Of a stretch of DNA of 33,485 nucleotides, positions 9,213 through 29,766 are shown in pieces. Numbering within the stretch: position 1 is the first letter of the stretch; the number at the start of each line of letters is the position of its first letter. This DNA is from Patescibacteria group bacterium (GTDB taxonomy: Bacteria; Patescibacteriota; Patescibacteriia; JAHIZJ01), in contig JAHIZJ010000031.1 of NCBI GenBank assembly GCA_018814765.1, positions 1 through 33,485 on the forward strand. Reading direction: 5' to 3'. A program made the translations under genes and the position numbers. The notes below the pieces were generated by a model. The model was given only the letters and a program-made list of their open reading frames with translations, made no database searches and was not told where the DNA came from.

Positions 9213-9241
9213 AGGATAACATGCTTTACAGGTTTTGTCAA
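9213..9241 (-). promoter_or_regulatory. Promoter of the CAP-domain gene (TTGACA-N17-TATCCT)
   Basis: Minus strand: -35 at 9241-9236, 17-nt spacer, -10 at 9218-9213; gene starts at 9176. Confidence 0.65.
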
Positions 9242-9273
9242 CCCCGTCAGTCTCGACTGACGGGGTCAACCCC
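9237..9273. repeat. Palindromic repeat, copy 1, overlapping a -35 box
   Basis: GTCAACCCCGTCAGTCTCGACTGACGGGGTCAACCCC; perfect 11-bp stem ACCCCGTCAGT/ACTGACGGGGT; near copy at 18632-18668. Confidence 0.8.
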
Positions 9274-27558: not shown

Positions 27559-29157
27559 TCAAGGTCGCGTGTTATTATTTTTCTTTGGCTTGGTAATGTT
27601 TGGCTTTCTATTATAAAAAGGTATTATCGTTTTATCCGGTTTTAAACGGTTAGTTAGAATCTTATTTATTATTGATTCTGGATTGAACTTATCGTTTTTT
27701 TTTAATCCGTATTTATTTACTCCTAGAGCCAAGCCTAAACTATTTGCGATAGTAACCCCCACCCTGACTGATGTAAATGGGCCTGGACCTTTTACCACTG
27801 CAATATGCGTAAGTTCGTTCACTTTGATATGATATCTTGTTATGAAATGATCAATTGTCTTTAATAAATCATCCCTCTTAAGCGCCGTGATAGTTTTATT
27901 GTATATATGAATCTTCGGCCCCTTTTTCAAATATAACTTTATCGTGTTAAATTCGGTTGTATCTATTAATAATATATTTGGGCTGTTCTTTTTCATGCTT
28001 GTCCATAACTCTTTAATCGTTCTGTCCATATGAGTTACATGTTTATACTTATGAAAAACCACCGGATCAATCCAGCGATAATCAGAATGCTCCCAGTCTA
28101 ACCTTATTGTTTTACTTTTAGTTTCAAACATAAACGGGTGAACAATCCATTTGTGCTTCCCATCGGCATGGTTAATATACTTTTTTCCTTGAACCATCAA
28201 CTTGAGCTGGTTCTTCTTAAGGCCTGTTTCTTCTTGTATCTCCTTATATGCTTGCTCTAGTGGTTTGTTGTCATTATCATAGCCTGCAACAACGTGCCAA
28301 TATCCAGGAAATTGACCAATCTTCTTCGAGCGCTTCATGATTAATATCTTGTCTTTGTGTCTTATTGACACAACTACAATGCTTGATTCTTTATTAATCA
28401 AATACTTCTTACACCAACCGATAGACTGTCTTGCCACTTCCTTTTCATGACCGCGCAACTGGTGATAACAATTTTTCAATACTACCAGCTTTTTGGCATC
28501 ACACGATATATACGCAAAAGCCTTTTTAACTTCTCTTACCTTTACAACATCATCTCTGTCTCCTACAAAATAAAGCGTCGGAATTTGAATATGGCCCGCT
28601 TCTTTAACCATGTTATATTTTTTTGAATCGTTAAACAGTTTTGGGTCTACAGTGTGTTTAATCTCAGGATTTCTTTTATCGTAAACTATTCTATATTTTT
28701 TTCCGTTTTTTTTATCAAGATGTGTAAACAAACGCGAATAAGTCTTGATCATGCTTGATACAGGAGAGAGGCCTATTAACACTTTAATGTTATGATCTCG
28801 TACTGTTCTAAGCGCTGCTATTGCTCCCCCCATACTATGTCCCACTAAACCAATGTTGTTAATACCTCTTTTTCGCAAATACTCAATAGCCGATTTCAAA
28901 TCATTTAGTAATCGAGTATATGTAACTGAACTAAACTTTCCTTCTGATTCACCTAACCCGGAAAAATCAAATCTTAACGCACAAATTGACTCCTGTTCCG
29001 CTAGATCTCCTATAATTTTTAATAATCTTTTTTCTTTGTAGTCATTGTAACCGTGACAGATAACTAGACCTGCATTATTAATTGGTCTTTTCGGCACATG
29101 AAGAACTCCAACCAATCGCTCACCTCTATTGTTTTTGAAATATATCTTTTTAATCAT
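27559..29157 (-). CDS. Three-domain fusion: alpha/beta hydrolase - NUDIX - TsaB-like
   Basis: ICHGYNDYKEKRL...GHSMGGAIAALRT...VGDRDD...CYHQ; VSIRHKDKILIMKRSKKIGQFPGYWHVVAGY...KEIQEETGL; LLIDTTEFNTIKLYL...HIAVVKGPGPFTSVRVGVTIANSLGLALGV. Confidence 0.88.
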   Translation of the reverse strand: MIKKIYFKNNRGERLVGVLHVPKRPINNAGLVICHGYNDYKEKRLLKIIGDLAEQESICALRFDFSGLGESEGKFSSVTYTRLLNDLKSAIEYLRKRGINNIGLVGHSMGGAIAALRTVRDHNIKVLIGLSPVSSMIKTYSRLFTHLDKKNGKKYRIVYDKRNPEIKHTVDPKLFNDSKKYNMVKEAGHIQIPTLYFVGDRDDVVKVREVKKAFAYISCDAKKLVVLKNCYHQLRGHEKEVARQSIGWCKKYLINKESSIVVVSIRHKDKILIMKRSKKIGQFPGYWHVVAGYDNDNKPLEQAYKEIQEETGLKKNQLKLMVQGKKYINHADGKHKWIVHPFMFETKSKTIRLDWEHSDYRWIDPVVFHKYKHVTHMDRTIKELWTSMKKNSPNILLIDTTEFNTIKLYLKKGPKIHIYNKTITALKRDDLLKTIDHFITRYHIKVNELTHIAVVKGPGPFTSVRVGVTIANSLGLALGVNKYGLKKNDKFNPESIINKILTNRLKPDKTIIPFYNRKPNITKPKKNNNTRP

Positions 29158-29368
29158 GTATTTATATCATCTAATAACTCTGGATAATTCAATGATGTGT
29201 ATTGCCAATTGTTTGGCAGGTTATGTTTTTGGTAATTATATTTAGTATATTTCATATGGTTTAATAAGTCTTCTTCATCGCGAATTATATGATCATAGAA
29301 AGATTTTTGCCAATAGAAACGAGGATGAGTTTTGTTACATTTAATAATCAATTTATTGCCCTGTAGAC

Positions 29369-29384
29369 GAGGTGGCGCCACCTC
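29369..29384. repeat. Perfect 16-bp palindrome GAGGTGGCGCCACCTC inside the RAYT CDS
   Basis: Self-complementary by inspection; preceded on the plus strand by GTAG (29363-29366). Confidence 0.8.
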
Positions 29385-29413
29385 TATGTTATCACCCCCA
29401 CCCTCTTCATGTT

Positions 29414-29439
29414 GGCGAGATTCCGTAATCTCGCCTACG
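29414..29439 (-). repeat. REP-like hairpin GTAG-GCGAGATT-ACGG-AATCTCGC inside the RAYT CDS
   Basis: Perfect inverted repeat GGCGAGATT/AATCTCGCC with 4-nt loop; 5' GTAG tetranucleotide on the minus strand; translated in frame as VGEITESR. Confidence 0.8.
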
Positions 29440-29766
29440 ATGAGACTATTTGCATCCCGTGTAAATTCTTTCTTTAGTGATTGAATAATCTTTGAAATAT
29501 TATATATTCCATTTGGCTTTAGTAATAGATGGAAATGATCCAATAGTAAATAAAAATCATATAACTCAAATATTTTTATACGTTTACATACCCTTAGCTC
29601 TTCAATAAATAGTTTACATAACTCTTCTTTCTTAAAATACGGGAAACCATTATGTGTCTTTGTTGTGATAAAACAAACAGCGTTTTCTATATAAAACCGC
29701 TTTGGATGACAAGATGGAATTGCAATCATTAATGTAGCTGCTCATCTCCCTGCCGATATCCGGTGA

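Follow-up and report, generated by a model that had tools for sequence, protein, structure and literature searches.

The window analyzed here, a 33,485-nucleotide stretch of DNA from a Patescibacteria group bacterium, contains a RAYT transposase gene with a REP carried in frame inside its own coding sequence, and we put at roughly 60% the probability that this is the cognate REP of the enzyme, an old fixture throughout the clade that is kept matched to the dispersed REPs of the same genome. RAYTs have been described as domesticated transposases, and the benefit that they bring and the way in which the right REP is kept are open questions. The evidence set out below favors an old, co-evolving cognate REP carried in cis over a chance insertion.

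The RAYT (TnpA-REP) gene lies on the minus strand (29154..29729) and encodes a protein of 191 aa. RAYTs (REP-associated tyrosine transposases) are single-strand HuH transposases, and REPs are the short palindromes that they are known to recognize. The sequence-only reading had called the gene a RAYT, and the protein does score above the cut-off for NCBIfam NF047646 (REP_Tyr_transpos; 84.6 bits, cut-off 80, range 10–174); the Pfam Y1_Tnp score of 23.9 is barely over its cut-off of 23. The best PDB match of the AF2 model (pLDDT 82) is 4er8_A (E 1.4e-8, TM 0.62/0.68), the E. coli RAYT in complex with a REP hairpin. The HuH motif aligns as D64-H-F-H67, and the catalytic tyrosine is probably Y161, with N165, an assignment made by homology and from the motif spacing given in PMC6006769; H57, Y153 and N157 of the trimmed homologue alignment (add 8 for ORF numbering) are invariant or near-invariant. 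The RAYT/TnpAREP features found are thus a curated family score, HuH and Tyr motifs on a Y1 fold, and GTAG-tagged REPs in the genome. In the AF2 model, pLDDT falls below 50 at model residues 92–112 (ORF residues 100–120), a stretch positioned between helix 70–90 (alphaC) and strand 137–140 (beta4), and the REP-encoded residues 98–123 are predicted to fall in this disordered alphaC-beta4 loop. At its 3′ end, the RAYT ORF shares 4 bases with the start of a 532-aa ORF on the same strand (27559–29157), in which an alpha/beta hydrolase, a NUDIX domain and a TsaD/TsaB-like segment are joined.

The GTAG-tagged hairpin described in the sequence-only reading is present on the minus strand inside the RAYT ORF, where 29438 to 29415 reads GTAG, GCGAGATT, ACGG and AATCTCGC, and it is translated in frame as V98-G-E-I-T-E-S-R. 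The stem is perfect, as claimed, but its length is really 9 bp counting a shared base (GGCGAGATT/AATCTCGCC, 29414–29435), closed by an ACGG loop. This element, REP-1 (GTAGGCGAGATTACGGAATCTCGCCAAC, 29411..29438, minus strand), has its GTAG foot at 29435–29438 and encodes residues 98–107. A second palindrome, REP-2, had been overlooked at 29363–29384 on the plus strand, in which a GTAG (29363–29366) is followed by AC and an 8-bp palindrome (GAGGTGGC/GCCACCTC, 29369–29384). Since this GTAG palindrome is oppositely oriented to the first, what the gene contains is a complete pair of inverted REPs, a REPIN-like element of 76 nt (29363..29438, minus strand) with GTAG at both outer ends that encodes residues 98–123.

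A chance hairpin is ruled out by shuffles of the window, by synonymous-codon shuffles of the gene and by the ssDNA folding score. The REP-1 hairpin pattern has one match in the window and none in dinucleotide shuffles of it, and as ssDNA the 32-nt hairpin has a folding energy of −10.2 kcal/mol (z = −5.2). When the codons of the RAYT gene are shuffled synonymously, 2.9% of the shuffles have a stem of at least 9 bp, and only 0.05% combine two stems of at least 8 bp, as the real gene does. The window's longest perfect stem belongs to a separate 12-bp hairpin at 9241–9266 (ACCCCGTCAGTC-TC-GACTGACGGGGT), perhaps a terminator.

The window is contig C120 of a 1.38-Mb genome in 139 contigs (G000), and the hairpin proves to be a REP, as had been proposed, and to belong to a family dispersed in that genome. 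The 28-bp unit GTAGGCGAGATTCCGGAATCTCGCCTAC or close variants of it are found in five dispersed copies (C91, C97, C100, C114 and C130), and C126 has a weaker one, whereas reversed-pattern controls on the same genome gave no copy; the flanks of the dispersed copies are unrelated, and the 28-mer is therefore the repeated unit. The internal REP of the window is slightly decayed (2/14 pairs mismatched), and its center is unlike that of the dispersed copies. REP-2, searched separately with up to 3 mismatches allowed, has one near copy (C135:131–152), and the matches do not include another copy of the pair. The second RAYT of the genome, on C73, carries a different palindrome in the same loop.

The RAYTs sampled came from 95 relatives, from 380 genomes of the phylum and from named genome contigs, the contig homologues being found by an alignment-based scan where a single-protein scan gave none. 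Most close homologues have a near-perfect palindrome of 10–26 bp with a G-N-A-G foot in the alphaC-beta4 loop, the stem differing each time, and synonymous shuffles of their genes seldom come near the observed palindromes. In a tree of 94 proteins, the clade of the window RAYT (SH-aLRT 90), which covers Patescibacteria, Cloacimonadota and Marinimicrobia, has a REP in this loop in 34/34 sampled members, and 56 of the 75 rows on the larger side of the tree have an internal REP. In nearly all members of the clade, the first base of the 28-mer falls on codon position 1. Relatives thus bear palindromes at the same spot, each with its own matching sequence, and enzyme and target therefore appear to have been kept physically together. 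In a further group of RAYTs (L041, L042, L043, L072, L073 and L076), the alphaC-beta4 loop is occupied by complete inverted REP pairs, most of which show a GGGTAG foot that is read in a different frame.

What is conserved at this site is base pairing. Over 34 distinct 28-mers, complementary pairs occupy 98.3% of pair cells (69.6% in shuffles), double changes number 129 (35 in shuffles), and covariation reaches 0.71 against 0.15; kinship alone can beat such shuffles without any structure, yet slid controls, which retain the relatedness, clearly fail (at most 0.12). Protein-level selection on GEITESR is rejected, as the palindrome persists though the peptide varies freely. The sequence-only reading had tied the nucleotide palindrome to this segment, and of the two only the palindrome is kept in homologues. 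Both grounds on which the hairpin might have been dismissed, a lack of other genome copies and homologues encoding the same peptide without a palindrome, accordingly fall away. The sister pairs L035/L037 and L101/L135 show synonymous changes in about 40% of same-amino-acid codons outside the REP and in 0/24 inside it (Fisher p about 1e-5).

These observations bear on the proposal that a RAYT inserts REPs time and again into a tolerant loop of its own gene, where they serve no function and are left to decay. The predicted disorder of the loop would suit such a hotspot, REPs do occur inside many genes (PMC3733652), the subclass 2.4 tnpAREP genes discussed below among the hosts (PMC6006769), and the internal-REP label takes about 13 changes over the whole 94-protein tree. 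Decay is also seen, the palindrome of the sister gene L122 being reduced to a remnant. We nevertheless regard this proposal as rather unlikely, given the 34/34 presence in one clade at a constant register and frame, the perfect stems of most members, and the absence of synonymous change inside the REP of the two sister pairs. The loss in L122 by decay does indicate that the internal palindrome is dispensable for the protein, and because the decayed remnant is retained, no insertion boundary is readable from the comparison of L125 with L122. Most genes with an internal REP have no second REP in the examined flank (up to 1 kb), whereas for three close relatives in the clade whose internal palindrome is not perfect (L122, L131 and L132), a REP flanks the gene at about 100 bp or less; this pattern, a small count, would fit an arrangement of one REP in cis.

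The arms of the palindrome extend by at least 3 bp beyond the 28-bp REP into unique flank in 14/32 perfect internal copies, and extensions of 3–12 bp are observed both in internal copies (L125, L137, L117, L114 and L126) and at dispersed sites (L196, L197 and L205), as if REPs landed at hairpin tips or were lengthened by fold-back copying. Covariation could in that case arise without selection, through fold-back (quasipalindrome) templating or conversion from dispersed REPs. The extensions, which are far above chance, and the complementary center of the palindrome, which a hairpin loop does not need, are what such mutational upkeep would produce, but it leaves unexplained why the loop retains a REP with a G-N-A-G foot and a GGCG base, and four RAYTs (L122, L130, L131 and L132) are without a perfect palindrome. 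As an account of the whole pattern we consider it improbable.

The lowest probability is given to a regulatory hairpin, in which the internal REP would be a RAYT site controlling its own mRNA or the replication fork, or a roadblock to translation or transcription; we regard this as very improbable. The element folds stably as ssDNA, and RNA structure is known to control IS200-type transposases (mentioned in PMC3733652), but G-U pairs fill only 2/476 cells of the 34 28-mers, and the element is positioned mid-gene, away from the start codon. Because G-U pairs are almost absent and the center is fully complementary, the constraint acts on DNA and not on mRNA. An mRNA hairpin is disfavored as the conserved entity on the same grounds, and RAYT autoregulation through the internal REP is not favored.

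The favored reading, a cognate REP held in cis, draws additionally on comparisons within single genomes. Dispersed REPs were located by pattern searches in 12 genomes and compared with the internal REPs of 19 RAYTs. In at least 10/19 RAYTs, the internal 16-nt core has an exact match among the dispersed REPs of its own genome, and in at least 14/19 it is within 2 mismatches of one, with cores taken by hand from match lists and some “dispersed” copies possibly lying in coding frames. Among the matches listed, 5/19 RAYTs have no same-genome dispersed REP within 2 mismatches, and there is no exact match between an internal core and a REP from the genome of another family. One genome (G055) contains three RAYTs (L061, L031 and L066), each of which matches its own REP set among the matches listed. 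A clade whose members each have their own REP in cis, and in which the matched pairs differ even within one genome, would represent a set of natural enzyme-substrate pairs that can be read from sequence, and these pairs would let REP specificity be decoded computationally.

REPs in frame inside a tnpAREP gene are already known from a sister subclass: in subclass 2.4, which corresponds to Bertels group 4, they are positioned between the HuH and Y motifs, as in the window gene, and Quentin et al. (2018, PMC6006769) regarded them as insertions that are tolerated. The insertion in subclass 2.4 lies between beta3 and alphaC and its motifs are NH[IFV]H, WQ and YIxNNP (PMC6006769), whereas that of the window gene lies between alphaC and beta4 in the AF2 model and its motifs are DHFH, WQ and YTKYN, of which only WQ fits. 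The window lineage fails both the site and the motifs of subclass 2.4 and is therefore a variant at another loop. Members of 2.4 type in our sample (L054, L059, L049 and L176) group apart as a clade of their own in the tree, and their palindromes occupy the beta3-alphaC site. Two RAYT lineages have internal REPs, each at its own loop, and a single lucky insertion would hardly account for this. The additions made here are the alphaC-beta4 site, the lineage, the conservation of base pairing and the matched pairs within one genome; a literature search that excluded preprints and most subscription papers found no report of the alphaC-beta4 form or of internal REPs in Patescibacteria RAYTs. The separate clade, which also includes L183, L157, L098 and L184, has palindromes of 20–44 bp, mostly GTAG...CTAC 28-mers, between HuH and alphaC, the location described for subclass 2.4.

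Other described systems have parts of this arrangement in common with the window gene. The fold, the HuH and Tyr motifs and a GTAG-tagged hairpin are found in E. coli TnpA-REP (YafM, PDB 4ER8) and REPtrons, where REPs flank the gene, while the window gene has its REP inside. The inverted pair of GTAG-tagged hairpins is that of REPINs/BIMEs (Bertels and Rainey 2011, PMC3116915), though the window pair is inside a coding sequence, at low copy number and in a 1.38-Mb genome. The intragenic REPs and RPEs described by Di Nocera (2013, PMC3733652) are likewise translated in frame as an extra peptide, but are spread over unrelated genes, whereas the type seen in the window occupies a conserved site in a transposase. 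For RAYT groups that co-evolve with REPs, biochemical evidence comes from flanked RAYTs (PMC8266576).

The arrangement can be put together as follows. The RAYT gene bears what is probably its cognate REP, as an inverted pair, in the predicted disordered alphaC-beta4 surface loop, where the extra residues would be harmless. The internal REP drifts in sequence, yet remains palindromic and matched to the dispersed REPs of its genome. By analogy with the E. coli RAYT, the enzyme is predicted to recognize the folded, single-stranded form of the REP at the GTAG foot, the copy in its own gene included, and cleavage would presumably act on the same structure. The in-gene copy may thereby serve as a resident REP that links enzyme and substrate through divergence and horizontal transfer, any benefit lying in that linkage, and it could be a source from which dispersed copies are made. 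A stronger version, which we advance only tentatively and hold to be clearly the less probable, is that of a transposase clade (Patescibacteria, Cloacimonadota, Marinimicrobia and others) with an obligatory in-frame master REP, in which specificity and REP co-evolve as an overlapping unit and the dispersed REPs descend from that master copy.

One of the genomes (G438) has a second family of REP-like dimers, back-to-back pairs of about 50 bp (GAAGGCGCGGAT...GGCGCGATT...) that are found at C18:2707–2756, C30:28015–28064, C31:5264–5313 and C45:22182–22231.
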